Source of the DNA: Proales similis
Lineage: Eukaryota; Rotifera; Eurotatoria; Ploima; Proalidae
DNA: 64,000 bases
Assembly (NCBI GenBank): GCA_019059635.1
Contig: JAGVRJ010000001.1
Coordinates: forward strand, 1,860,001-1,924,000
Direction: 5' to 3'
The notes beneath the pieces were generated by a model, which worked only from the letters and a program-made list of their open reading frames with translations, searched no databases and was not told where the DNA came from. A program made the position numbers and the translations under genes. Positions 11,809 to 62,198 of the stretch are shown here, in pieces. Each line of letters begins with the position of its first letter. Positions within the stretch are counted from its first letter, which is position 1.

Positions 11809-12485
11809 ATTGATTATTCAAAGGCCGAATACTGATCGTATGTCCGTAGATACCAGTTCGGAATAGATAGTACCTGAAAGGTGTTACAAATATTGAATAC
11901 AGACCCCCAAGTAGTCTTATAATATGCTTCCCCAGTTATTGCTAATTAATCTGTTCGGTATCATGAACCTATTTTAGAATCCGGAGAGCAAAGTTTCTTT
12001 CTCTTCTCTGTACCTGTAACAGAACAGAAACTCTGAGTGAGAAGGCAAGAACCAATTCAAGTTTCAACATAACTTAAAAATGAATGTAGACGAAAAATCG
12101 TTATCTCGGCGGAGAAAAAACGAAACAGAGGAAACAGATAGGAAATTTGACCAAATAACAAGAAATGCTAATAAAATCATCACATCTTTTCAACTTGATA
12201 TCAGCAAAAGATGCTTCGAGCTCAGTCGAAATGATCTTTAAGCATGAAGTATAAGTGAATTCATCAGTTATATGGCCAGAGAGGCGCGTTAATAGAGAGC
12301 GCGTATCATATTAAGTGCATTTTGGCGAGGTTCTGGGCATATTCTCAATTTAAGATTTCATGGTTTCTGAAAAGATTGTTTGGAAAAATGTATAGTTTAT
12401 TTTGCAAGACACATGTCATGCATACCACAACAACCAAATGAGGGCGGTGAGCGTGCGACGGCAATTCAGGGTTTAGTTGGTAGGC
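11809..12485. other. Divergent intergenic region, SCHIP1 / SETD2
   Basis: Presumed promoters of SCHIP1 (minus) and SETD2 (plus). It contains one short open frame (12080-12241), listed separately. A possible upstream mini-exon ATGAGGGCG followed by GTGAGC sits near 12440-12455, so the SETD2 leader might be spliced. Confidence 0.4.
12080..12241 (+). CDS. Small open frame, 53 residues, charged helical peptide
   Basis: An ATG at 12080 opens a 53-codon frame rich in Lys, Arg, Glu and Asn (MNVDEKSLSRRRKNETEETD at its start). It lies upstream of SETD2 and has a predicted amphipathic, helical character. I do not recognise it. It could be a small gene, a SETD2 upstream ORF or chance. Confidence 0.2.
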   Translation: MNVDEKSLSRRRKNETEETDRKFDQITRNANKIITSFQLDISKRCFELSRNDL

Positions 12486-15461
12486 ATGAGATTGGGCTCG
12501 ATGTCAAGTGTTAACATTGGAGAACGTCACCGTCACGAGCGATCTCATCAAAGGTTATCAAGAGATAGGATGAGCCGGGATCGATCAAGAGAAAGTCGCC
12601 ATTTTAAACAACACTCCCGGCGGAGTAGCTCGCGACGATCACGAAGGCGAAGGTCTAGTCGCTCTGATTCCTCTTCTAGCCGACGTAGAGGAGATCGTCG
12701 TCAACGTTCGAATTCTTTCGAAAAGAAATACCAAACTCTATCGAATGAGAAAAATCTCTTCATCAAAAAAAGAATTCACACTCCATCTCCTCCGCCGCCC
12801 GAAGAGAGTTCAAGTGAAAAATTGAAACCGGACGAAATTCTCATCAGCTTAAAATCAGAGCTACATAATCAATTAGAACAAACCCTGTTTGCTCAGCAAG
12901 CGTTAAAAACATCCATCACAGTTTCGAAAGAATCTGATAGGAAAAGACCGAAGCCCTCAAAGAACAACGACGAACATAAAACACAAAGCGAACGAGTACG
13001 ACGAAGTGATCGTATTAAACACATTGAGACAATCAAGAAAGAAGAAAAACAGGCAATGATCAAAAAGCGATTGAGCGAAGCACCAGAAAAGCTAACAGAC
13101 GAGAACCATGAATCTTTTGCTCAACTAGATGAAGAAAATCCAACCGAATTGGTTACTCTCTATCAGCATATAAGCGAAAATTTGTACGGAAAACGGCTAA
13201 AAGAGCTTTATTCTGCAGGACGTGACAAAAGAATGGTTTGTGACTGCAGTACCAGTGAGCAAGAGCGTTTAATGGGAATAGTTCCGTGCGGATCAGACTG
13301 TCTTAATCGCATGCTAATGATCGAGTGTGGTTCCAGATGTCCATGCGGAGAATACTGTACCAATAGGGATTTCAAAAACAAGAACTATGCTAAGGTAGCG
13401 CCATTCAAAGCTGGATCGAAAGGCTGGGGAGTAAGAGCTGCACAAGTTTTAAAAGCCAACACTTTTGTAATGGAATATGTTGGTGAAGTAATCGGACTCA
13501 AAGAATTCAAACGCCGCTGTGAGCTATACGCCGAAAACAATTATGAGCACTTTTATTTTATGTCGCTCAGTAATTTAATATTCATCGATGCCACTCGAAT
13601 GGGAAACTATAGCCGCTTCCTTAATCATAGCTGCGACCCCAATTGTGAAACTCAAAAATGGACTGTGAGTGGCCAGCTCCGAATTGGTATATTCACCAAA
13701 CGACCTATCGCAGCGGGAGAGGAACTAACCTTCGACTATCAGTACCAAACAGTCGGTAAACATCGACAAAAATGTTATTGTGGAAGTTCAAACTGCCGAG
13801 GATATTTGGGTAGCAGTTCTAAACAAACCGACGATGTGGCTGAATTCTGGCCGAGCAGTGATGAAGAAAGTAGTACAGATGACGAAGAAAGTGAAGATGA
13901 AGAGGAAATCGACGATGATCTCAATCGGCAGTTACACTCAATCAACTCACTGGGTAGCAAAGAAAGCGTGTTAAAACTTTGCCAACTCATGTTCCGTTCC
14001 AAGAATTTTCATTGGCGTATTGAAGCGCTCGATCTACTGCTTAGTACCAGATCTCCTATTAGCCTGAATCTGTTTATGGACTATCATGGGCTAAAGATAC
14101 TATCTAGCTGGATGGTAGATGTCGATCTAAGTAGCCGTTCTCTGCCTTACCTCAAATATCAAGTTAAAATACTTGATTTACTATCGATGCTACCCATAAA
14201 AAACAAAAGTCGTCTTGAAGAATGTAAGCTTTTCGCTCTCATAAAAACATGGGAAAGAAAGGTTTACTGCAATTATAAAGTCAATGATCAAGTCAAAAGT
14301 GTTGTTGAAAATTTAATAGAGTCTGTTGAGCGAAAGTTGGAAGGTGAGCGAGCTCTTGAAACGCTCGCTTACATAAGAGCTCAGGCAACAGTCTTGAACG
14401 AGAAATGGAATGCACTAAAGGAGACATTTAAAATTCCGAAAAAAGAACGTGACCAAGAACGCAGGGATCATGAAAGAGAAATAGCATCAATTCAGCAGAA
14501 AATTCCAAGACAATTTGAAAAAGACAACACTGAGAGCCGTATTTCTACTTCTCCTGATTCACCGCCTCGACGTTCTAACTATCGTCTATTACGACGTGAT
14601 TCCCGAGAAACGCCGACTTCACAGATGAGTAAGGAAGAGCGAAGGCGTCTTTTTGAAGAAAAAGTTCTCAAAGAAGAAAAAGAAAAGCAACAGAGTCAAC
14701 ATTTTACAAATGAGAGAATACCGTCTATCCCATCCGATGAACAAGAAAACCAAGCTCAAAACCAAATTGAAAGCGACATAAGGAAACCAATCCAAACCAG
14801 GCTGGTATACGATGCCAACCGTAACCAGTGGTTTGAATGCGAAATTTCTCAAAAAGAAGATGAATCCACCAATCAAGCTGCTCCTCAACTAGACTTTAAC
14901 TCAATAAATTTAAGCAATACGAACTTTAAAGAGTTAAAGCAAGCCGTTAAAATGTTGATGCCGAATTCTATTGAGTCTCCAGATGAGACAAAGCAAAACA
15001 AACCCGAATCAAGTCTGCCTAACGGATGGAAATGCAAATACAATCGAAAAGGAATTAAGTATTACTATAATACTATAACAAAAGTATCACAATGGCATGC
15101 ACCTGAAAAAGAGCCAAAAAAAAGCCAAGTTACGAGTGAATCGGTAAAAAAAGAAAAAAAAGACAAATTCAGAGATGAAGTCAGCAAATTGGTGATAAAA
15201 TTGCTGCAACCATATTTAAAAGCGGACTGCAAATATGGAAGAATAAAATCCACCGATGATTTCAAGCATTTGGCCCGTCGCTTTACGCATTTAGTCATCG
15301 AAAAAGAGTTTGAGAGGCGTCTAGCATTGAACGATTTGATGCTAAATGAGCGAATCCGGTCGAAAACTTTTGAATTTATTAAGCGCTTCATGCGCCAGTT
15401 CAAGCCATTTTACACCCGTCAGCCGGAAGCTTCAAGCAGTAGCAACCAGCCAGATCGATAG
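12486..15461 (+). CDS. SETD2: Histone H3K36 methyltransferase SETD2/Set2 (single exon)
   Basis: An uninterrupted 991-codon frame encodes the whole enzyme, which trimethylates H3 lysine 36 during RNA polymerase II elongation. The N-terminus is an RS-like Arg/Ser region (residues about 15-75). The AWS zinc cluster is at about 248-294, the SET domain at about 300-420 (FNHS-type motif FLNHSCDPNC, EELTFDYQY) and the post-SET cysteines at CYCGSSNCRGYLG. An acidic SSDEESSTDDEESEDEEE run follows. A WW domain lies near 843-875 (LPNGWKCKYNRKGIKYYYN) and an SRI domain at about 890-975 binds the phosphorylated polymerase tail. It is much shorter than vertebrate SETD2 and closer to a minimal architecture. 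The ATG at 12486 is the first in frame. The lack of introns is odd among its neighbours. Confidence 0.96.
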   Translation: MRLGSMSSVNIGERHRHERSHQRLSRDRMSRDRSRESRHFKQHSRRSSSRRSRRRRSSRSDSSSSRRRGDRRQRSNSFEKKYQTLSNEKNLFIKKRIHTPSPPPPEESSSEKLKPDEILISLKSELHNQLEQTLFAQQALKTSITVSKESDRKRPKPSKNNDEHKTQSERVRRSDRIKHIETIKKEEKQAMIKKRLSEAPEKLTDENHESFAQLDEENPTELVTLYQHISENLYGKRLKELYSAGRDKRMVCDCSTSEQERLMGIVPCGSDCLNRMLMIECGSRCPCGEYCTNRDFKNKNYAKVAPFKAGSKGWGVRAAQVLKANTFVMEYVGEVIGLKEFKRRCELYAENNYEHFYFMSLSNLIFIDATRMGNYSRFLNHSCDPNCETQKWTVSGQLRIGIFTKRPIAAGEELTFDYQYQTVGKHRQKCYCGSSNCRGYLGSSSKQTDDVAEFWPSSDEESSTDDEESEDEEEIDDDLNRQLHSINSLGSKESVLKLCQLMFRSKNFHWRIEALDLLLSTRSPISLNLFMDYHGLKILSSWMVDVDLSSRSLPYLKYQVKILDLLSMLPIKNKSRLEECKLFALIKTWERKVYCNYKVNDQVKSVVENLIESVERKLEGERALETLAYIRAQATVLNEKWNALKETFKIPKKERDQERRDHEREIASIQQKIPRQFEKDNTESRISTSPDSPPRRSNYRLLRRDSRETPTSQMSKEERRRLFEEKVLKEEKEKQQSQHFTNERIPSIPSDEQENQAQNQIESDIRKPIQTRLVYDANRNQWFECEISQKEDESTNQAAPQLDFNSINLSNTNFKELKQAVKMLMPNSIESPDETKQNKPESSLPNGWKCKYNRKGIKYYYNTITKVSQWHAPEKEPKKSQVTSESVKKEKKDKFRDEVSKLVIKLLQPYLKADCKYGRIKSTDDFKHLARRFTHLVIEKEFERRLALNDLMLNERIRSKTFEFIKRFMRQFKPFYTRQPEASSSSNQPDR

Positions 15462-28140: not shown

Positions 28141-30533
28141 TCACTTTATCTTAGAAAGGGCCTCACTTCTGCGATCACTGATCATAAAAATCGCCCGAAT
28201 CAAATGTCGGATTTCGTCTGAGTCGAAGTGAAGGGCTAGCGGGCCATGTCCTTCGCTCCAAAGTTCAACAATATCCTTGAGACTTGCATTAAGAATAACA
28301 AGTAAAAAGCTGAATCGGCCCCAGCTTTTGGTGTGATTTTCAATGCTTAGTTCAAGCTCTTTAATTGACTCTTGGCTGGTTGAAATTTTGTCAAACAGTT
28401 CATGGGCAGTACTCTTTAAAACTTCGAAGGCCTTGCATATATGGCTCGCATCGTCTGAAGTAATGTCCTCTAGCTGAAGGACATCACGAACAAGACGGCT
28501 GCAGAGCGAATTCAAAAGTTGTCCAATTACGTTTTGGAATACCACTGGCGAGAGAACTTCAACCCAAACCGATTTGAGATGCTTGAGCTGAGCTGCACAA
28601 CAGTTGAGTGCTTTGGTTATACGTTCGGCATTCTTCGTTTGAGCCAAATCCATTAAAGTTGAAATTTCATCATCAACAAGTTGCATAAGGTACATGGTTT
28701 GTCGTTGAACTTCCCGTTCCATCATTTCATTGGCCCTAGCCGTAAGTTTGGGTACAAGCCGAAGAATATCAAATGCGTCAAATAGTTGATCAAGTTCAAA
28801 CTGAGAAAGAGGCTCTGGCCGAATGCAATTGATCGAGTGCAGAAGATTACGATATTTGGCAGTAAACAGCATACAGCGATGAGCAAGAAGCTGAAGGTCA
28901 TTGTGAACAATCGCACTCAATATGGGCAAACTAGAGCAATCTTGCTTGTATAAATTTGGCACTATGGCCTCGTAAATGGCAGCCAAATTGCAACTTGCAT
29001 TTAACAATAGAGCGATATTCTTGAGATTTGAACGGCCACTTCCAAGCATATCTAGGGCTTCATCTAACGTACGCTCTAACAAACTCAAGACAGTAACTAT
29101 CATTTTGCTCGATACAGGAACTGGTACACTCAACAACTCCGAATGCGGGGTCTTGAATTGTTCAAGTTTCTTACCCAACTCAGAATCGCTAGTTAGTTTC
29201 TGCTGAGTTGGAGTATTTTCGAAGAGATTATTGCGATCTTTAAGAATACTTCGGACCTGAGCGACTAGAAATCGAGCCTTCTTGCGAACATAAAGTTCTT
29301 CAACACTTTGGCTTAGACTTGAGAGCCGACCAACAGTTTCACTCTCAAAGCCCAAACTGCTGAGTCGGTTCGTGAAACTCTCAATTTGGTCTCGAATTTC
29401 TTGCTCAGCAGAAGGACTTAGTGAGTCGGACGGTAGACTTCCCAGAACCACTTTGTCGAATATTAGACGGGAAAAACTTTCGCCCATGATTTCGGCCAAT
29501 ATCGACATGAGTGGAAGACGACGCTTATTTGACCAGTCTGTGCCACTCAGATTAAACGGACCCATCTGATGTAGCCATTCAAAGACTTGTTCAATTTGGT
29601 ATAAAAGATGCTCAAGCCCTCTGGCTGATCGATTTGACTTGATGAAAAAGAGCTCTTGATCTGAAATCGAGACATCTTTTCCTTCTTCAATAAGCTCGTT
29701 TTCGATTAGACGAATCAGCTCTTTTCCAAATCTTTTGAATTGCTTTTCAAACATGAACCTTCCACTTGAATATTCCTCAGCGCCTTTAACTTGACCAAAC
29801 TGGTCCAAGTCATTCCAATAGATTTGATCAATAGCTCCTGATATTTTTATAAGAGCCTGGTCAGCTTTTATCGAAAGCAACTCATCAAATTTTTGATCAA
29901 GATGGTGCCAAAGCTGTTGTTTGAGAAGCTTAAATTGCTCGCTCATGATTGATACGACATCGAGCGATCTGAGCAATCGCATTTCATCGCTCCATATTGA
30001 TTCTAGTCTTAGCAAGAGGCTATGACACATTTGAAAATCACTTTTGGCAATCGAGTGCTCAAACAAATTCAAGCTTGAATTAAAATCTCGCAGAATTCTT
30101 AGATGGTCGATCATTGAGGCCAATAATTCAAAGTTGTGGGTAGCCAGGCGATATCGTTCCATTCGTGTCGCATCGTGAGCTGAGAGCTCCTGATTAGGAA
30201 AAAATGAAATATACGCTTGGAGAAATTTACAGACGAGTAATACCTGAACAGCAAGCTGCTTTTCAATTGAATTGAACTGCTCGTAGAGAAACTCAAGCTG
30301 GCCGACAATTTTATCACTCCTGGCTAAACTGCTCTCCACATCGGATCTATGTGAAATCTCTTTTACTTTCCTCAAACATTCCTCATCGCTTGAGTCTATT
30401 TGTTTTAAAAGATCATCCAAGTCACATTCCTGCTCTATTCTCAAATGAAGTTGGTATTTTAATAAAAATTTCTTGAGCGAATTTAAATACCCGAAAATCT
30501 AGCCAAAACTTGATCGAGTCGCGTAGAACTCAT
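28141..30533 (-). CDS. ZW10: ZW10 kinetochore and Golgi-ER tethering protein
   Basis: A short first exon from the ATG at 30533 (MSSTRLDQVLARFS) splices to the main frame (EQECDLDDLLKQID). A 54-nt stop-free intron lies at 30190-30243, and the stop is at 28141. ZW10 belongs to the RZZ complex at k-MTs, where it recruits dynein and checkpoint proteins, and to the NRZ tether for retrograde vesicles at the ER. The body is all-helical. The C-terminus is diagnostic: SLKDIVELWSEGHGPLALHF followed by RRSEALSKIK, against the ADGKGPLA and RRAAALAKIK ends of vertebrate ZW10. The length is comparable to human ZW10 (779). Sequence is divergent in the middle. Confidence 0.9.
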
Positions 30534-39410: not shown

Positions 39411-42400
39411 TCAGGCATGCCCTGAAGGGCCTAGCAGGATCTCATGCAACTTTTGAGCAGTGCTTCGATCAACAGTAGACATAAGCTGATCAAAAACTGC
39501 CTTTCCGAGTTTGGATTCGCACTCACGAATGGTTTTGATGCAGTATTCGTTTAGTGCGATACTGTAAACCGGGTTTTTGGCTCTAATCTATTTGTTGGTT
39601 TTCACCGTCAAGGAGCGATTTCTTATTTACTCAAATTTGACCTACTCGTCTCTTTCGTTTCTCATGCTCGGTGTCGACTTCTTCGTCGTCGGCCTCGCTC
39701 ACGTTTGGGTTCACCAGCATACAACTTATTTTTTGATCGATTTTCATAGCAGGAAGACAAAGTGATTGGTTAAACGGCATACTCATATTTCTGTCCATTA
39801 TCCTCTTTGATAACATCAAGCATCACGGTCAAACAGATGTTTAGAATAGAGGGCATACGTTCCAACACTGGCCTATGAAGATGCAAGCGAAGCAACGTGA
39901 TTAGAGAGGTGTAAAGAGAAGAGTGTTGGGCAGTGGAGAAGGGGGAGGGGCATAGTTGCAAGTGCTGTAGAAGCCTCTTACCCTAAGCCTGTAGAGAGGA
40001 GATGCAGAAGAGCGAGAGCAGTCAGCTTTCGTCGTTCAGGATGAACAATCATGTCGATTTTGTCGGCGTAAGAATCTAGAAGACTGGCCAATACAGCTTC
40101 GGGCTAGATGCTATTCTTTAGCTTTTGTCCATTAGGATTCTAACGGATAGCAAACACTTACTGTTTGATTGAGAGAAGCAGCACTTTTCTGAACAAATAA
40201 AAGAAAGTGCTCGCAGTCATCGAGCATTTCCTTGGACAATAGGCTAAGGCAAAGCGCCATGACCATTGGATAGACATCGGGATTCAGCGCTATGAGCAAA
40301 CATTTGAGAATCAATGGCTCAAATAGCTTTGTTTGAATATTGTTGGCCGGCGAGTCGAACATGCCTTCAGCTGATCGAATCAGACGAATGAGAGCGTCAA
40401 TTTTCATGTTTTCATTCAGCATTTCGCAGTATTTCTGGACCAAGAAGGCGCCATGGAACTGATAGAGAGCGCTTGCGTCCAGTATGACATAAGAGTCGAT
40501 TATGTCGAGACAAAGTTTCCAAACGTCTGTGTCTCGGTCCATAATCGGTTTGATGTTGTTGAACAGTTCGAGTAGTTCGGCGCTCATTTGGGTCGAGTTC
40601 TGCACAGTAATGCACCAAAGCTCAAGCGCGTCCTCTAAAAGATAGATACTCGCCGGATTATTCACGTCAGTCGCAAAGTGAACTACTGGCAATATGAATC
40701 CGTGATAGGAAGTGGACAAGGCGCCGAGAGCTTTGACTAAATAGTGAAGGGTTGTAATTATACAGCAGCGGAGCATATTGTGCTCGGCTGAATGTTCCCA
40801 CAAAAGTGGCAGATAGTTGGCCAGCTGAGCGTAGTAAGGTCGTATGTAAACATCCACTCGCTCGACGATGAATGAGATCACACCGAGCACTTTGATTTTT
40901 GTATCTCCTTCTTCGACTTGTTTGAGCAACGCGCACAAGAGCTCAAAGTGAACGTTCAAAAAAGGTAAATAGCTCTCGCGTTCAAAATGAACATCATCCA
41001 AGACAGCTCGCAAGGTCTGAGTGGCTTGTAGTCTGATGACAAGATCTTCACTCGGCTGAAGGCAAGTGCATAAAAGCTGATAAACAAGCGGTCGATTCTG
41101 AGCCTCTAGCTTGATGTTCACCCAGTTTGAAATTAAAATAAGAATTCGACGCTTGATTAACTTGGGTGTTTGTGCGTTCATTTGTGGTAGGAGGCTAGAT
41201 GTAAGCCAAGAGTCAAAGTCAATGTGCGACATGAGGTCCCAGGCAGCTATGCTGGCACAATTGAGACTTGCTTCTTTCAAACGAACTAGACGCTGGTCAC
41301 TTTCGTTTGAATAGTGCTGAACAAGAGTGACCACTGTGGGCAGAACCAAAGGGCCATATTCGTGAACAAAGGCCTGATAAAGAGTCTCGGCACAGGCTCG
41401 AAAGTTGTACTTCCATGCATCAAGATCATTGCTGTCCTCATTAATAAACTCTTCTGGTGACTCGTCCCACTGCTCGAGCTCTTCGTCGCTGAGCAGTAAA
41501 TATTCATTGAAAAGGAATTCAAGAACTCGTTTCACATTTTCTGCAGTTATGAATCCACTTTTGATTGCAGCCGCTTGCTTTTGACAAGTTAGAGCTCGCT
41601 CGTCACTAGGTCGAACGATGCTCGCTTTGTACTTGTCGCACATGATAATTGACTTGAGCAGGTTCATGAGGTTGATGCTGAGCTTGGTGTATGATGCTGC
41701 TCTGCCTTCGGGAGTAAAGCAAAGCTGCATTATCATGCGCATGGCCCGTTCGAGGCCTACACGAGCGAAATCGAACGGATACTGCTCGTGATAGTCAGAT
41801 ATAATGTCAGTTATTAAAACAATCAAGTACTCGTATTTTTCTTTAAAATAATCGATCACTGTTTGCTGACCAGAGGCAACCAGTTGACCACGAGAGGTAA
41901 TGAGACGTTCGATACTGTCAAAGAGGCCGGAGAGCAGAGGTTCGATCGGCTTCTGTTCATTTAGGTCCTTAAATCCATGAAGCACAAGTTTGTGAATGAT
42001 TTTCAAGCTTATTATGGCCTCGTCCAGTTCGAAGGTCAACTGCTTGAGCAGAGACTCTTGCGCGTTCAAACACACTTGCTCGGCATTGCTCATGCATTCA
42101 TTGATGTAATGAAAAGCGAATTGCATCAACAAGTCGATCAGACTATTGGTCAACTCTTCGAAGACCTTGCGATCGTTCGCTAGGCGTTTTGAAGAGAGCG
42201 ATTTGATTATTTGGTGCAGCGCCATAAAGCATCGGCTTTGGATGAGACTTTGTTCGGAATTGTTTACTTGAGTGCCCGAGGTGCTCTCAAGTAGTCTGAC
42301 GAGCTCCGTGATAAGTTCTGGCCATTGGAAAGGAAAGTCAAAGCGAGCGAGCTTGCCCAACGTCACCGACATTTGACGTGCGATTTTTAGCTCCGGCTCA

Positions 42401-42757
42401 TTGAGCCATTTTAGCATTTGTTGCTTAAGGCAAGCTCGCTCCTCGTCGCCAATCGAGTTTACAGCGCTTCTCCGCCAGTATTTGTCAATTGAGTTTTTAA
42501 GACAAATACAAGCCATAAATCGAACGCTGTTCTCCACCGAATGGTTCGTGATCAACTCCTTTAGGTCGGAAGAGAAGAGGATCTTTGGTTTGATTGGTGT
42601 GGGTGGCTTAGGCAAGACCTACCATTAAGACAAGAGTGTAGCCCGGTCGCACTTCAAGTTGCTTTATGTTCGCCTCGGCTTCTTTAACTTTGCCAGCTTC
42701 TTGATTGCACGCCTGGGCCATCACCTGGTAGACATCCTGCACGTTAACTTGCCACAT
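39411..42757 (-). CDS. IPO11: Importin-11 (karyopherin beta family)
   Basis: Six exons from the ATG at 42757 (MWQVNVQDVYQVMAQACNQE) to the stop at 39411, joined by introns of 40-120 nt. Importin-11 carries UBE2E-type ubiquitin-conjugating enzymes, PTEN and RPL12 into the nucleus. The protein is a HEAT-repeat solenoid. Family blocks are clear: SIDKYWRRSAVNSI, ARFDFPFQWPELI, SSKRLANDRK, DAWKYNFRACAETLYQAFVH, ANYLPLLWEHSAEHNMLRC and YLLEDALELW. Small 3' exons add HPERRKLTALALLHLLST, YEDCMLVNPNVSEADDEE and NPVYSIALNEYCIKTI. Length (about 975 residues) matches human. An E-box lies about 200 nt upstream. Confidence 0.95.
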
Positions 42758-45788: not shown

Positions 45789-45968
45789 GACAAGCTAGTC
45801 AAATGGTTTGGGTTGGTTTGGCTGATTCTTGTAGCCCCTCTCTGCCAAGTCACATGATGTGAGTATGAAGGCGACACCAAACTGTCTTGCATGAAAACTT
45901 AAATGTGCTGCTTTGAAATTTAAATAATTTTAGTTTATTGAAAAATATTTTAGCCTTTTGGGCTAATA
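45789..45968. other. Short gap between hormone-sensitive lipase and ATRAID
   Basis: 180 nt with an E-box-like TCACATGATG near 45850. It must contain the lipase 3' end and the ATRAID promoter or a shared processing region. Confidence 0.4.
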
Positions 45969-46178
45969 TCAGAGTTGATGATCGAAAGAGTTGATTAGAT
46001 CGTTCAAGAGAGCTACCGATTCAGAACAAGCGTCGTATGTTTCACTGCTGAGAGCGCTCATATTTATAAAACCATGAGGAATTCCATTGTCAGCAACAAG
46101 GAGTTCACAAGGAACGCCGAGTTTTTTAAGTCGCTTGCCAAACTCAATCGTATCGTCAATAAACGGATCCGTGCAAGC
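45969..46178 (-). CDS. Distal alternative last exon of hormone-sensitive lipase
   Basis: A 210-nt exon preceded by ATTTGATACAATAG on the minus strand, also phase 0. It encodes ACTDPFIDDTIEFGKRLKKL and NGIPHGFINMSALSS, then a TGA. Its ACTDP start resembles the canonical ACALDP of vertebrate HSL more closely than the proximal exon does, although the triad residues are kept in both. Using it means skipping the proximal exon or retaining it in another transcript. Confidence 0.8.
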   Translation of the reverse strand, partial: ACTDPFIDDTIEFGKRLKKLGVPCELLVADNGIPHGFINMSALSSETYDACSESVALLNDLINSFDHQL

Positions 46179-49100
46179 CTATTGTATCAAATCGTTTCAT
46201 TCAAAATGAGTTTATAAATAGATTTAAAGTTTGATAGTTATTTTTGTAAAGCAAAATATAAAATACTAAAACCAGGAAGAGCAATCTAGATTAACAGATA
46301 GACGCCAAGTTTTATGGGTGCAAACATTGAGCCGGTCAATAACTGGTCCAAGCACTAGACGCTCGTATGGGTGAAGAGAGTCTTAATTTTGTGAACCACG
46401 TGTTTAGATGCTTTTTGACATTTCTTGTTAACGGTGATAAAGTTCAGAAAGCCATGGTGAAGACCAGGTAAGACAAGCATCTCGCACGGAACATTAAGTG
46501 AGTCGAGTTTTTTGCGAAACTCCATATTATCGTCAAGCAGCGGGTCCAAGCTAACAGTCTAGAGAGGGCAAATAAGAAAGAATAGAATGAGTAACGAACG
46601 AATAGCAAAATATTTAGATGCCAACAAGCAAGTGATCCAATTGATGCAGCAGCAAAGAGACAGACAAGCAATAAACGGGTAAAATAGAAAAACAACTTAC
46701 AATCAAACAGGTTCGTGGAAATTTGCACAAGATTTCGTCTGGACTCAGTAAGGGCGACATAAATTGATTGTTTGTAAGCTCATGGTTTCGTAAGGTTTCG
46801 ATTAAAAATATTGAATCGCCCATGATTTGATGCAGCTTAATTAAACGAGCTCGATTTAGCTCATCATTTGCCTTTAGATCATGATTGTTAATTGAAGTTG
46901 CGTCTGCGATCGACTCATTTAACTCCGCTGATTCCATCTTAGGGTCTAATGGCTTAACAGGTATGATCTTATTTGGATCCGCACTTAACCGGCGACTTTC
47001 TGATTCCGCCTTTTGGAGCTCATCAGATGTCTCAAAGCTGCGTGAGTATCGTATTCCAGTGGTAACTTTCTTTTCTTTGGTTTCAATCGCTAACAGCTGC
47101 TTAAAATTTTCCGTCTCTCGCTTAAAATCTATTCCACAATAGGCGGCTAGACAACGCCACAGAATTCCAATGTTTAAAAGAGGGTCAACAATTGAAAGAA
47201 GGCGACTCGGCGACAGGCTGTAGTTCAGTTGGAATGGTGCATATATCGGAACTATTGCGTCAGGCACTCGAATCCCGGCTATAATTGCTCTCTGAGTTAT
47301 GTTGGTTATTAGAACTCCACCGGCGGAATCGCCAACAAGTATGATCCTTTCGCCGCTCCATCCAAGAATAGATTTATTGCTCAAGCACCAAGCGTATACA
47401 TAGAAGCATTCTTCGGACGCGCGTGGAAAGGCATGCTCGGGAGCCAACGAATAGTCAATGCTCAATATTGGCACTTGAAGCTCCTTACTCCACGGTTTAA
47501 GGTAAATTTCATGGGACTTGGACGAATGCGCAATAAAGCCGCCACCGTGTACATGGAGGATGAGACAAGAACTGGGCGGAAGGGAATCGCTGGAAGAGTC
47601 TGTCTTCTCATAGCTAAATGGCTCAGTCTCATCTCCCAGTTTCTCGAAATCAGCCATCCCGCGCCGCATGCTGTAACTAAGCAGTCTAATTCCGACCTTT
47701 TCACCAGCCTTGTGTCCAGTCGGAACATTGATTTGAACAGAAAAATTGCCGTCTGCGCTCGGGATGCTAAATGGTACTAATGAAAGCTGCTTCAGATAAT
47801 TAACTCCAACGCTTGGAGTTATCAAATTGGAGCCCATCTTGTATAGGTTTTTATATTTTTTTTGTGTTCTAAATTAACGGCATAAACTTACTTTGGCAAT
47901 TGAGGACTCTGTTAGCTGCCAGAAGGCTTTGCAGAATTCAACGTTGGCTGTTTTCATCACTTGAGCAATCTGAACCGAAACAAAAGATTAAGACAAAATT
48001 GTTTCGGTTAAATTTAGCACGCATTACTTTTTTGCTTCGAAGGTCCGGATCTATGATATAACGAGAACCGCTGTACACTGATTTGACGACTTGGCCAAGA
48101 GTTTGCGAAATTGTTAAATTTGGCACTGCCTGAGAAACTGAATCAGAGTTTTCGTCTGATATAGCGCTAGCAGTCGCCACCAAACTGGGCGCAGTATATG
48201 CCTCATAGCCGTCGTTGTAAGAGGCGAGTGCAACTGCTACTCCAGTCAAGGGAACTTGAAGAGAGTCATGAAACTGAAAGCCGCAAGCTCGGCCAAAGAA
48301 TGGCTCCACGTGCTGAGAGCAGAGCTCAAAAAGCTCGTTTTCGATATCCGTATCTAACGCCTGTGCTGATGTGACGAAAAGCGTATCGGGGCTTGCGTGG
48401 ATCATTTTTACACCAAGTTTAAGGACCTTTTCAAGTGTTTGCATAACTTTCAGCCACATTTGAATTTCTTTGACATTTGTGCTGAAAGCCATCGGCAGGT
48501 TGCCATTCTTGAGCTTTATTTGAAAGAAAAGATTTCCTTTCTTTTCGTTTAGCTCAACCAAAATGATCAAGAGACGGCGTGCACAGCTCTCAAACATTTT
48601 CAGCAACGACCAGTAGCCGTTCGTACGAATATCAGGATGGTAGTCATATTTGGGCGCGTTTTTCTCTATCTCTTCGTAGAGCAACAGGCAACGCTCAAGC
48701 AGCTGTTTACCATGTCGAGACAATGCTACATAAGTGCGTGCTCGCGCTTCGCTTGTTTCCATAAAATCGAATTTTTCGCTGGAATCCCCCACATCCGGGC
48801 CAAAGTGCTCAATCAATTCGTTAAGGTTTTGGTCCAGGTAAACAAATATGTCTTTGGGCAAAAGATCGTCACTGTGCAAAAGCTCTTTCTTACTTAAGCG
48901 ACTGAGGCTAGATGAGCGGTTACTGGCAGAATCGAAATGGCCTTTGGAAGTGGACGGATCACTGCTTTTCGATCTTATAAATTTCGGACGGCCTCTTTGA
49001 CTAGACGGACGGCCAGCTGGACCTGATGTGGTTCGAAAGACGCTCGAGAAACGTTTACTCGTGATGGTTAAGCTCCTTTGAAAGCCCGAAACTGGATCAT

Positions 49101-49287
49101 TAGAGAAGAGGGAGCTGGATGCTGTAGGACGGCGAAGCACTGATTCGACTTGAATTTGAGCGGTGGAATCAACTGACGTCTGGGAAGAGCTGTCCGTTGA
49201 CTTGGCGTTTACCAAGTAATTTTTTATGGTTCTAAAATGCTGCATAACTCTGCGTGCGTGCTGCTGCTTGTTCGCATCAGGCCACAT
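45969..49287 (-). CDS. LIPE: Hormone-sensitive lipase
   Basis: From the ATG at 49287 the N-terminal HSL domain is encoded (GYWSLLKMFESCARRLLII; GRACGFQFHD; SRYIIDPDLRS). A catalytic alpha/beta-hydrolase domain follows, with HVHGGGF (oxyanion hole) and VGDSAGG (Ser nucleophile). HSL releases fatty acids from diacylglycerol, cholesteryl ester and retinyl ester stores in the cytosol. The Ser/Thr-rich stretch before FMSPLLSPDE is the likely regulatory module. The main exon ends at 46700. Two alternative last exons follow, at 46355-46558 and 45969-46178, each phase 0, each with a DP.xDD Asp and an HGF His and a stop, so this range spans both isoforms. Internal introns at about 48026-47974 and 47890-47838 join the N-domain to the hydrolase. 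Confidence 0.93.
46355..46558 (-). CDS. Proximal alternative last exon of hormone-sensitive lipase
   Basis: A 204-nt exon, preceded by TTTGCCCTCTCTAG and read in phase 0 from the upstream donor at 46699. It encodes TVSLDPLLDDNMEFRKKLD and LPGLHHGFLNFITVNKK, then a TAG. The DPLLDD Asp and HHGF His complete the lipase triad. It is the nearer of two similar exons, and its use requires no skipping. Confidence 0.8.
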   Translation of the reverse strand, partial: TVSLDPLLDDNMEFRKKLDSLNVPCEMLVLPGLHHGFLNFITVNKKCQKASKHVVHKIKTLFTHTSV

Positions 49288-57182: not shown

Positions 57183-57368
57183 GCTGATTTCTGACTTTTC
57201 ACGTCCCGATTTGACTGGTGTTTGTATCATGCAAAATTAAGAATGGGCTTAAAATCCCATGCAGATCTGCTTTATGCGATAGCGAGGCAAAGAGTGATTA
57301 AGTCGTTGCTTACTACTCAGACATTATTAAAAGGTGAGCCTGCTCAATGAACCGTCGACTTTGTTGAA

Positions 57369-60300
57369 ATGTCCTCAGCTGACCATCAGGTTGAAGAAAA
57401 GAAAGACAGGCGGCATTTGAACCGATACACTGAACTTCTGGTTCCAGCCATAAACGCATTGTCAATTCAAGTTCAAAATGAAAGTGAAGTTCAGTCTGGC
57501 TCAAATAACAACCTGGGCTTGCTCAAGATCGAGTACGATGCCTTGCTATTTGTGGAGCAGTTGATTTTGAATTTGCTCAATGCGATTGTCTTGGCCTCAT
57601 CAGATTACTTCAACTCGCTGCTGGAACGCGAATCAGACCCTCGGGAGGATCTGATTGAGCCCATGTTCGTTCCGATAGCGAATGTTCAGGAAGCTGAGCT
57701 CCGAGTGAGAAGGGTGGTGCCGAAAACGTACGCGGAGAGCATTTGCTCGGAGGCTCAGGAGCGACTTCACGCTCATAAGCAAAACATCAAGGGCGGATCG
57801 CGGGCCATCAAGCAAATTTTAAAAAGTTTGACCAATCGACGACCAAATAGAAACGACGCGCACGGCGGCGAAACAAACAGCGGCGAGGCGCACAGTAGCT
57901 TCTCGTGGGTGAACAATCATCTGATTGTATCAAAGGACATCCTTGTCTTTCCGGTCTCTCAAGTTCACGAAATCCTGTCCAAAGAGCTGTGCAACTACAA
58001 ACTAGACATGGACGTGACTATTTACTTGTGTGGTGTTATCCAATCTGTGTGTGCCGATCTGCTGTTACTCGCATCCAACTACGCCAGATTTCAGAACAAA
58101 TTTAGCATCAGCAAGCAGGACGTGAGCACATCAATCTATGCCGAGCCTCGTTTAGCCAACTTGATAAACAAAAACACCAAAGAAGGCTATCCTCAATTCC
58201 CGGCAGTCAAACTTGCCAGCGATCAGATCGATCAGTCTGAGGCAGACTGCGATGATTCACTCTTTAGCGAACCGTACACAAATGAAACATCTAGTGAGCT
58301 AGATAGCGAATCAGTTGTATGTCGCAATTCAGGCTCAAACTGCTCACTCGACACGATAGTCGGCTCGGCCAGAAACCTGACAGTCAGCACCAATGCAGTG
58401 CACGATGAGATCAGGGCGAGAAATGAATATAAAGCTCGAGTAAAAGAACTGAGTCAAGAGCAGCAACATCATATACAAGATCTTAGACTTATTCGGGTTG
58501 TGTTTATGAACCTGTTCGGACAGCTCTGCTCTGGAATTGATGAACACGAAGGAGCAATGCAGGCCGTATTCGCCAATATAAATCAAGTGTATGAATGCGC
58601 ACTGTGGCTCAGTGACGAACTCGAAGAGTGTTTATCGAGTCCAGAAAACGACCTACCTCTGGCTGGAAACTATATTTGGAGCTTGGCTATGGGAAACGAA
58701 TTCGATGTGTATCAAGAGTTTATTGATGCAGTTACAAACACCAGCCGTCTGGACGAGAACATTAAACGTTTATTGGATTATGGTAACACCTATCAAACTT
58801 TGCAAGAGCTAAGCCCCGGCTTGGGTGACGTCAGCCGATATTTACTTGGAAAACTGCTGCACGGCTGCGTCTACCACTTTCTCTACATTTACGAAACTCT
58901 CGAATACTTGATTGAGCGAAATGTAGATGTTGAAGACAAAAAGACTCTTAAAAGCTCACTTGACACCCTGATAGCCGGAAAATTAAAATTGGCCGAGAAA
59001 AAACTGAATAGTTCCAAGTATCGTCCGGTTGAGAGTAGTTTCCAACTGCTTCAACAGTTTCAATTTGACCTGTTTAATCAGAGAAACGACAAAGCCTTGT
59101 TGGAGAGCCCCGGTACGAGTATGTCTTTTATATGGACGCCCGTTTTCGTCTCGAATGTAGCCAGTGTCACGCGGAAAAAATGGAAAGAGCTGCACGAAAA
59201 CCTCGACTGGTCTAAAGAGGACGGGGGCAAAGCAACATCGCCAAAACAGATCAAAATGCCTTATGCCTATCTTTACGAGGGCAAAGTGAGCATCATGGGC
59301 AGTTACACTTTAATACCTCACGACGCCAACGTAAATGAGCTTCCACGAACCAAGGTGGCCAGCCGACACGCGTATTTGTTTAATAATCAACTTATTCTTA
59401 TCAAAAACAACGGCTCAAAACGCGGATGCAAGTTTAAATCATGCCTGTCACTCGACGAGTGTACTCTCATCGACATGAACGATGATAAATGTTTTCTAAT
59501 TCAAACAAGTCCGTCAATCGTTCAAGTAGGCGCTCAGCCTGAATTCACTCTCTTCATTGTGGAGTCGGTGATCGAGAAAAAGCGATGGATGCGAATGCTC
59601 TGCTACACTTTGTACCGTATCGAACGTATACTTCCAAAATTGAGCGAAGAAATCTGCTTGGCCTCTCCACTAAACATTCCGCCGCCAAATTACGGATTCG
59701 ATCATCCAGACTCTCCCAATACGATTCTATTTGAAGTGGATTACGAGCTATCCGATGCCGAAAATCCATATATTCAATCAGGCGACTTGCTGGTTCAAGC
59801 GGCCACAATACGCAAGCTGGTCGAACGCTTGACTCATCCTCGTTACACAGATGGACAGTTTCTAGATACATTTTTGCTGTTTTTTCACGACTTTTGTCAG
59901 CCTAGAGAACTACTCGAGCTTTTGTTTGAACGCTTCCAAGTGCCAGACTTGGATCCGGAAAATATAGCGAGCAACTTTGACTCGAGTCCGTTCTGGGCCG
60001 GCTTTACAGAACGCGAGATCATTAAGCGCTACAAGCGTGAGTACCAAAAACCGATTAGAGTAAAAGTCATCAATACGCTTAGACGCTGGATCGAAAAGTC
60101 TTATGAAGAAGACTTTAAAAATGATGCTCAACTGTGCAAACGAATGTTAGATTTCATCGAAGCCGCCGAAAAGGTGAGCACGCACTTGGCCAACTTGTTG
60201 AGAAGTGTGTGGCAAAAACAAAAACAAAAGCAAACGGATCCGACTTGTTCGAGAGAGACGATCAGCTTTCGATCCGAGAGCGAGAATCTGAAAGAAATAT

Positions 60301-62198
60301 TTGAAGTTTGCCTCAAGAGCCGGGTTCGTGAAGAAGAATGTCCCGAATTCGAAACGCATCTTGAAGACAAGTTTCCGCTCGACTTGCTCAGTATTCACCC
60401 GCTTGAATTCGCTCGACAGGTAACTCTGATGCACATGGAGCTCTTTTTCCGCATCAAACCCATCGAGCTGGTGAGCAGCGCGTGGAACAAAAAAGATCTT
60501 AAACACAAACTGGCGCCGAATGTCACTAATCTGATCAATTTGTCAAACAAGTTAACTTATTGGTACAGAAAATGTGTGTTTGACACGCCGAATTTGGAAG
60601 AGCGAGTAGCCATGGTTCAAAGGCTGCTTGAAATAGCCACTTATTTCCATCAGATGCGTAATTTAAGTGGCCTAAAAGAAGTGTTCGCGGCGCTTGAGAG
60701 TTGCACATCTGACAAGCTGAGAGTGACCCGAGCGCGCACTGACATAGAAAATCATGAGATATATCAGATCGCATCGAAGCTTTTTGAAGGGCAGAAGTGT
60801 TATAAAGAATTTGTGAAAAACTCTCCTCGACCTTTACTGCCTTTTATGGGCAATCATCTGAGCAACATTTTCCGCAAAATGGAGCACAGCAAATGCGCTC
60901 GAGAGCATCATGCGGCTCGTCTAGCCAAGCAGCAGATGGCATACATTGAAAAGCTCGGCTACTCTGAAAACCAGAGCCAGAGCGGCGAATTGATTTACTT
61001 TTCCAAATATCGACTCCCGTTCGAATTTATCAGGGAGATATTAGAGCTGCAAAACACGCCGTACAAGTTCCGAATCCATCAACGCATGAGAGCATTTATT
61101 ATCGACGAACTGGAGATGTTATTCGCTTCGGTTAGACGGGAGTGTCCCGATGACGTGAACGACTCGCAAAAAGTGGAAGACTTTCTACACTCGAGACTGG
61201 ACAAGCTTGAGAAAGACGGTGTAGTAGCTCATCATCCCCGACTTCGCCCGTACGATCTTCGATCACCGCCGAAATCCAGCAAAAACAGCTCCAAGCCAAA
61301 GGAGGCCAAAGAAAAGAATACACCGTTCGGCTCGCAGCCGTCATTCTTTGTTTTCTTCTCCAACCTTGGTGATCGAAGTCAGTCATCGAACAAACTAAGC
61401 GAATCGGAAAAAGTCACGCTTGAGTTTGGAAAGAACTGCTCAAACTCTCGGATGCCAACCTCTCCATCATCTAGTTTGAGTAAAAACTCCGATGCAAAGG
61501 CCAGCAAGCGTGTTTCTTCCTTAGCAAGGCAGAGCTCTTCGCCTTTTATGGATTTGGACAACAGGCCAAGAATGAGCAGTGATCAGAGCTCATACAATCA
61601 TCCTAAAACGGCTAGCTGCTATTCATTCGCTCAAAACAATTCTGAGCCTCCGTCACCGGTACTGACCAGCACTCAGACAAGAAGCAGCTTAAAAACTGCT
61701 TCGTTTGGTTCTGAGAGCTCCTCGGCGCCGAATTCACCTCCGCCCAAATACGATGAGATTTTCAGCGGTCCAGCTCATCAGGCATACAATAACTGCTACG
61801 ACAACAAAACCTATTTTCATCGATGTCAATCAGTAGTCACCGACTCGGACATAAGCGAAATCGCCGAGAATCCGAGTCCCGGCTGTAGATCAGCATTGGA
61901 AGCAGGTCTATTCTCAGCAGACTCTGGTCTGATGTTCACATTTATGGAAACTCCGACTGGTCAGAGTGAGTCGAGCAGGCTCTTAGATAGGGCCGGCTCA
62001 ATGGATGGCGACGAAAGTCCAGGACCTATTCTGGCTGGTAATGTCCCCCGGGCATTGCTTGTTAGAGGCCAGCCGCCGCTAAAACTAGACCGGGCAAGAG
62101 CTTCACCAGTTTTGACACGTTCAGGCAAAAGACATCCACCACCTTTACCGTACCCGCCTCCTCCACCGCCTAGTCCACCGCCGCCGCCACTCAATTAG
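57369..62198 (+). CDS. SOS1: Son of sevenless, Ras guanine nucleotide exchange factor (single exon)
   Basis: A 1609-codon open frame with no intron. SOS turns receptor tyrosine kinase signals into Ras-GTP. The N-terminal histone folds (about 15-265) carry a basic insertion near 155-180 (SLTNRRPNRNDAHGG). The DH domain lies at about 360-570, PH at about 630-755 (MPYAYLYEGKVSIMG), REM at about 795-935 (VQAATIRKLVERLTHPRYTD) and Cdc25 at about 1008-1230 (SIHPLEFARQVTLMHMELFF; NLSGLKEVFAALES; LPFMGNHLSNIFRKME). The tail is Ser/Pro-rich with PPLPYPPPPPPSPPPPP at the very end, suited to Grb2 SH3 binding. It is longer than human SOS1 (1333). The ATG at 57369 is the first in frame; a short upstream exon cannot be excluded. 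Confidence 0.95.
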   Translation: MSSADHQVEEKKDRRHLNRYTELLVPAINALSIQVQNESEVQSGSNNNLGLLKIEYDALLFVEQLILNLLNAIVLASSDYFNSLLERESDPREDLIEPMFVPIANVQEAELRVRRVVPKTYAESICSEAQERLHAHKQNIKGGSRAIKQILKSLTNRRPNRNDAHGGETNSGEAHSSFSWVNNHLIVSKDILVFPVSQVHEILSKELCNYKLDMDVTIYLCGVIQSVCADLLLLASNYARFQNKFSISKQDVSTSIYAEPRLANLINKNTKEGYPQFPAVKLASDQIDQSEADCDDSLFSEPYTNETSSELDSESVVCRNSGSNCSLDTIVGSARNLTVSTNAVHDEIRARNEYKARVKELSQEQQHHIQDLRLIRVVFMNLFGQLCSGIDEHEGAMQAVFANINQVYECALWLSDELEECLSSPENDLPLAGNYIWSLAMGNEFDVYQEFIDAVTNTSRLDENIKRLLDYGNTYQTLQELSPGLGDVSRYLLGKLLHGCVYHFLYIYETLEYLIERNVDVEDKKTLKSSLDTLIAGKLKLAEKKLNSSKYRPVESSFQLLQQFQFDLFNQRNDKALLESPGTSMSFIWTPVFVSNVASVTRKKWKELHENLDWSKEDGGKATSPKQIKMPYAYLYEGKVSIMGSYTLIPHDANVNELPRTKVASRHAYLFNNQLILIKNNGSKRGCKFKSCLSLDECTLIDMNDDKCFLIQTSPSIVQVGAQPEFTLFIVESVIEKKRWMRMLCYTLYRIERILPKLSEEICLASPLNIPPPNYGFDHPDSPNTILFEVDYELSDAENPYIQSGDLLVQAATIRKLVERLTHPRYTDGQFLDTFLLFFHDFCQPRELLELLFERFQVPDLDPENIASNFDSSPFWAGFTEREIIKRYKREYQKPIRVKVINTLRRWIEKSYEEDFKNDAQLCKRMLDFIEAAEKVSTHLANLLRSVWQKQKQKQTDPTCSRETISFRSESENLKEIFEVCLKSRVREEECPEFETHLEDKFPLDLLSIHPLEFARQVTLMHMELFFRIKPIELVSSAWNKKDLKHKLAPNVTNLINLSNKLTYWYRKCVFDTPNLEERVAMVQRLLEIATYFHQMRNLSGLKEVFAALESCTSDKLRVTRARTDIENHEIYQIASKLFEGQKCYKEFVKNSPRPLLPFMGNHLSNIFRKMEHSKCAREHHAARLAKQQMAYIEKLGYSENQSQSGELIYFSKYRLPFEFIREILELQNTPYKFRIHQRMRAFIIDELEMLFASVRRECPDDVNDSQKVEDFLHSRLDKLEKDGVVAHHPRLRPYDLRSPPKSSKNSSKPKEAKEKNTPFGSQPSFFVFFSNLGDRSQSSNKLSESEKVTLEFGKNCSNSRMPTSPSSSLSKNSDAKASKRVSSLARQSSSPFMDLDNRPRMSSDQSSYNHPKTASCYSFAQNNSEPPSPVLTSTQTRSSLKTASFGSESSSAPNSPPPKYDEIFSGPAHQAYNNCYDNKTYFHRCQSVVTDSDISEIAENPSPGCRSALEAGLFSADSGLMFTFMETPTGQSESSRLLDRAGSMDGDESPGPILAGNVPRALLVRGQPPLKLDRARASPVLTRSGKRHPPPLPYPPPPPPSPPPPPLN

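Follow-up and report, generated by a model that had tools for sequence, protein, structure and literature searches.

Can one gene supply two lipases that share a nucleophile and take the other two catalytic residues from different exons? The question is raised by a hormone-sensitive lipase (HSL) locus of the monogonont rotifer Proales similis, which lies in a 64,000-nucleotide stretch of contig JAGVRJ010000001.1 (positions 1,860,001 to 1,924,000). We call this whole stretch the window, and use its own numbering throughout. HSL is commonly treated as a single enzyme under the control of phosphorylation, and its known variants arise from alternative first exons or from skipping of the exon that bears the Ser. 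From the sequence we hold with high confidence that the window carries a single HSL gene with two conserved tandem terminal exons, a proximal one (P) and a distal one (D), and one donor that would be joined to P or to D. On this evidence it is very probable that two lipases, differing in an exchangeable catalytic half, are made from one gene.

The gene is on the minus strand, and the part common to both predicted proteins is laid out as follows.

49287-45969, minus strand: the HSL gene, recognized by HSL_N and Abhydrolase_3 matches
48028..49287, minus strand: exon A, the HSL N-terminal region, with an open frame and an HSL_N match
47892..47969, minus strand: exon B, 26 codons long and in phase 0 at either end, with GT/AG borders and an HSL_N match that spans its junctions
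46701..47837, minus strand: exon C, the catalytic domain with HGGG and GDSAGG, ending in phase 0
46695..46700, minus strand: the 5' splice site GTAAGT after exon C, common to P and D

The start codon of exon A was taken as 49287, an assumption; the true start may be an in-frame ATG 14 codons inward. Every junction of the gene is in phase 0. An earlier, sequence-only reading of this DNA had put the end of exon C at 46700, which is one base off: the last exonic base is 46701, and the donor GT occupies 46700-46699.

The same reading had named the gene as HSL, and profile and structure-database searches bear this out. The translated gene matches HSL_N (E 2.5e-48) and, with either ending, Abhydrolase_3 (E 5.8e-34 for the D form and 4.4e-37 for the P form), and among PDB sequences the D form matches human HSL (8zvq) best. 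Exon C contains both of the motifs that identify an HSL, the oxyanion motif HGGG and the nucleophile motif GDSAGG, with the nucleophile Ser codon at 47327-47325. The catalytic Asp (DPxxDD) and His (HGF) of the C-terminal part are present in P and again in D. Those of exon D align to Asp693 and His723 of 8zvq (residue numbers counted from the alignment), which we take to be the catalytic residues of human HSL. Because HSL_N and Abhydrolase_3 occur in one protein with either ending, the gene is by its domains a hormone-sensitive lipase, with predicted lipase activity. A whole-genome search with HSL_N finds one locus only, as two pieces, so that by this profile the HSL gene is single in the genome.

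Elsewhere in the window there are very long open frames, at 57351-62198, 12477-15461, 40132-42618 and 28141-30498. By Pfam they are SOS-like RasGEF, SET/SRI methyltransferase, importin-11-like and ZW10-like, all ordinary conserved genes, and their length is in keeping with a compact, intron-poor genome.

Downstream of exon C lie the two candidate endings.

46355..46558, minus strand: proximal terminal exon P, coding for 67 residues before a TAG stop; Asp codon 46546-46544, His codon 46456-46454
45969..46178, minus strand: distal terminal exon D, coding for 69 residues before a TGA stop; Asp codon 46169-46167, His codon 46076-46074

The description of two downstream phase-0 exons, each behind an acceptor and each with an Asp, a His and a stop, is confirmed. 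Both begin after an AG (...CCCTCTCTAG/ACT for P and ...GATACAATAG/GCT for D, the stroke marking the exon border), continue exon C in phase 0 and carry their own stop codon. As had been argued, a transcript can use only one of them as its C-terminus, P ending in TAG and D in TGA, and any one protein would therefore carry P or D, never both. The donor at 46700 would be joined to P, across an intron of 142 nt, or alternatively to D, across an intron of 522 nt that removes P. Either choice would extend the common HSL_N/HGGG/GDSAGG body by a strand-helix-strand-helix unit that bears the catalytic Asp and His.

The two exons had been proposed to be a tandem duplication, and genome-wide searches uphold their homology. 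Queried with the P peptide, the genome gives P itself, then D (E 4.8e-8, 42%) and last a single weak match elsewhere (E 0.004, 27%, one stop). With the D peptide it gives D, then P (E 6.3e-8), and no other match at E <= 1. P and D are identical at 22 of 61 aligned residues (36%). At third codon positions the agreement is 38%, and of the 22 identical residues 13 are encoded by different codons, implying that the duplication is old. Homologous, adjacent, in the same phase and provided with usable splice sites, the pair reads as tandem duplicated exons.

We then compared the locus with the HSL proteins of other species. Two protein searches scored the 7,995 and 7,994 candidates that shared most words, the second giving the best 120 of 448 matches; 165 relatives were examined, 47 of which bear the exon C junction. 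Among the best-scoring candidates, the best protein matches of the window HSL are rotifers, including Brachionus calyciflorus. In the relatives the residues F-P-x-T-x-L-I precede either module type. Beyond the junction, 13 of the 47 continue into P, 10 into D, 23 into V-S (22) or V-I (1, P0114), and 1 ends; the 23 include P0090, which also counts as D-type below. A GTnagt-like donor would encode just these V-S or V-I residues, and their presence in 23 of 47 relatives thus supports an intron normally present at this position. One relative, P0007, crosses the A-B and B-C junctions and then reads V-S into the intron, its open frame taking up 65% of a 4,367-bp contig; it is possibly an intron-retaining transcript that would give a lipase without the Asp-His pair.

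Both ending types occur among monogononts. We call monogonont-like those proteins that are closer to the window and Brachionus than to named bdelloids (P0003, P0005, P0006, P0008, P0009 and P0090). Besides Proales, four monogonont-like proteins have P-type endings (P0006, P0008, P0009 and Brachionus plicatilis P0085) and four have D-type endings (P0003, B. calyciflorus P0004, P0005 and P0090). In five of these eight, the open frame takes up 87-96% of a short contig (2,023-3,420 bp) and continues across the junction, into P in P0006, P0008 and P0009 and into D in P0003 and P0005; judging from the share of the contig that is open, these contigs look like cDNA. Since no P-type/D-type pair exceeds 76% body identity among the best matches listed, the eight are not two forms from one species. 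Outside Proales the monogonont evidence comes from separate proteins for P and for D; among the monogononts examined, both exons were seen together in the window only. A further search, with the C-terminal 113 residues of the P form, found 2 proteins, both P-type; having missed P0008 and P0085, it is no census. At the DNA level, no relative from another rotifer was found among 202 pattern matches in viral contigs and 37 in genome contigs.

The protein P0090 differs in layout. From the end of exon C an open frame of about 69 nt leads straight into the D module, without P between; P would here be absent or elsewhere, and some rotifers may have lost or moved it.

Could one of the two exons be an unused relic in Proales similis? 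The weak acceptor of D is in favour of this, but the sequences argue the other way, and we regard it as very improbable. Both frames are intact despite the 38% agreement of their third positions. The identity of Proales P to the P modules of P0006, P0008, P0009 and P0085 is 63, 53, 66 and 48%, respectively, a range of 48-66%. Against the D modules of P0003, P0004, P0005 and P0090, Proales D reaches 53, 48, 44 and 48%, a range of 44-53%. Proales P and D, by contrast, share 36%. Over five monogonont modules of each type, Proales included, mean identity is 56% within P, 50% within D and 33% between P and D. Proales P is therefore closer by sequence to the P of other rotifers than to the D that lies 380 bases away, as is expected of long-kept, separately constrained exons. 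Decay of one copy was the sign that, on the earlier reading, would have told against two working endings. Instead, P is intact in four monogonont-like proteins, D is intact in four, and there are bdelloid models that carry both, the exception being P0090, with D and no P between.

In bdelloids, 16 proteins have a module at the junction. Five read a complete P and then D (P0012, P0013, P0015, P0016 and P0017), three a cut P and then D (P0020, P0022 and P0028), one P alone (P0031) and seven D alone (P0014, P0018, P0026, P0027, P0032, P0034 and P0116). Taken literally, the chained models would mean that P is sometimes internal and is spliced onward from within to D, so that the protein would have two modules or be broken: five of them join complete P to D, and three are spliced out of mid-P. 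Yet in P0012, P0013, P0016, P0017 and P0020 the chaining replaces the usual residues of the D exon start, as forced models would, and in the window P closes with a stop and, on reading, has no GTRAGT inside it. We give such internal use of P very little credence. The chained models are probably misannotated, two terminal exons having been forced into one protein by gene predictors.

To relate the modules of the two subclasses, we built a maximum-likelihood tree of 53 modules over 64 columns, with 23 outgroup modules hand-picked from the relatives' proteins. The tree omits P0032 (D type) and the truncated P of P0020, P0022 and P0028, and the first four residues are blanked in the bdelloid D of P0012, P0013, P0016, P0017 and P0020, where the models splice off the exon start. 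Four clades stand out, with supports of 98 for monogonont P, 97 for monogonont D, 100 for bdelloid P and 100 for bdelloid D. The comparison with related species that had been suggested for this locus thus comes out positively at the protein level: both ending types are present after the same residues, in separate clades.

The tree leaves room for two histories. The same exon might have been doubled separately in bdelloids and monogononts, a course of events that we think rather unlikely. Mean identities between monogononts and bdelloids are only 30-37%, the clade joining both D groups has a support of 46, and the AU test does not reject independent duplications (p 0.355, against 0.614 for a single D clade, with all six tested trees in the 95% set). 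Nevertheless, the best-scoring tested tree is the one with a single D clade, the junction and the P-D order are the same in both groups, and two residues past the Asp all 11 P modules have Leu and all 19 D modules have Phe. We propose, tentatively, that the common ancestor of bdelloids and monogononts duplicated the HSL terminal exon and that rotifers have since kept a splicing switch of the acid-base half of the triad. There would then be two lipases with one nucleophile half, one regulatory module and different substrate or pH preference, chosen by tissue, by life stage (feeding female, resting egg) or by nutrition.

The catalytic His is present in all 30 rotifer modules and the Asp in 27 of them. 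The three without it belong to the five bdelloid D modules that were blanked in the tree; there the gene model joins away from the true exon start and so shows another residue in place of the Asp. AlphaFold models of one P-type and one D-type relative both match human HSL, so that in these models either module completes the HSL fold. Besides the Leu/Phe site, the types differ just before the catalytic His, which is preceded by His or Thr in 11 of 11 P modules and by Pro in 18 of 19 D modules (Gly in P0005). In the bacterial esterase E53, I256L had little effect and S285G, adjoining the His, cut activity (PMC8767022). If I256 is taken as the same position as the Leu/Phe site, the difference there may mean little. 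A functional difference between P and D lipases is plausible, and the two enzymes would differ in the properties of the pocket.

How might an ending be chosen? The relevant signals are these.

46559..46580, minus strand: acceptor region of P, 18 of 20 bases before the AG being pyrimidines
46179..46200, minus strand: acceptor region of D, 8 of 20 bases before the AG being pyrimidines
45934..45939, minus strand: AATAAA, 29 bases past the D stop

Both acceptors had been called good. The AG is present at both and P deserves the word, but D is pyrimidine-poor; in this it resembles the acceptor of exon C in the same gene (7 of 20), unlike that of exon B (15 by the same count). Since P comes first and has the stronger acceptor, it would be the default ending, and use of D would need P to be skipped. 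Proales similis is expected to splice both.

The 3' ends might be shared or separate. No AATAAA or ATTAAA occurs from the P stop to D, and the AATAAA at 45939 follows the D stop closely. It is thus distinctly possible that P and D are alternative 3' splice sites before one common poly(A) site, P transcripts continuing through D as 3' UTR and the choice being a competition between acceptors. Against a shared site, the variants CATAAA (+38) and TATAAA (+138) follow the P stop, and of 13 long-ORF ends in the window, not every one a true gene end, only 7 have AATAAA within 250 bases, so that the absence of this signal after P says little. Either arrangement would yield the same two proteins.

If the switch is real, the conserved choice of an Asp-His pair would be a splicing-level control of lipolysis. 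It would also be a natural experiment in how substrate preference is set by the C-terminal half against an unchanging nucleophile half. The gene shows, besides, a catalytic triad distributed over one fixed exon and one of two optional ones, an arrangement kept in at least two rotifer subclasses. Work on rotifer lipids that assays HSL with primers or reads placed in a single ending would overlook the other form.

The earlier reading knew of no such arrangement in HSL, and our search agrees. Among the matches listed from the open-access literature, we found neither alternative terminal exons described for HSL nor any account of HSL splicing in rotifers, and none of an alternative catalytic C-terminus in human HSL. 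Alternative C-terminal exons are known in other genes. The serpin-1 gene of Manduca sexta has them. So does PpSerpin-1 of Pteromalus puparum, 16 of whose 21 exons have clear orthologues in Nasonia, over about 19 My (PMC10513286). The rotifer gene is like insect serpin-1 in having duplicated exons for the C-terminal part that are orthologous between species and alter the functional site. It is unlike insect serpin-1, which makes inhibitors from many exons, in that HSL is an enzyme whose exons, two in number, exchange two of its three catalytic residues. Human ketohexokinase (KHK) is a tandem duplicated exon substitution in which one catalytic residue is kept in both versions (PMC9741552). Like KHK and other such substitutions, rotifer HSL has homologous tandem exons; whereas those of KHK are internal and carry one catalytic Arg, the HSL exons are terminal, have their own stops and carry an Asp-His pair.
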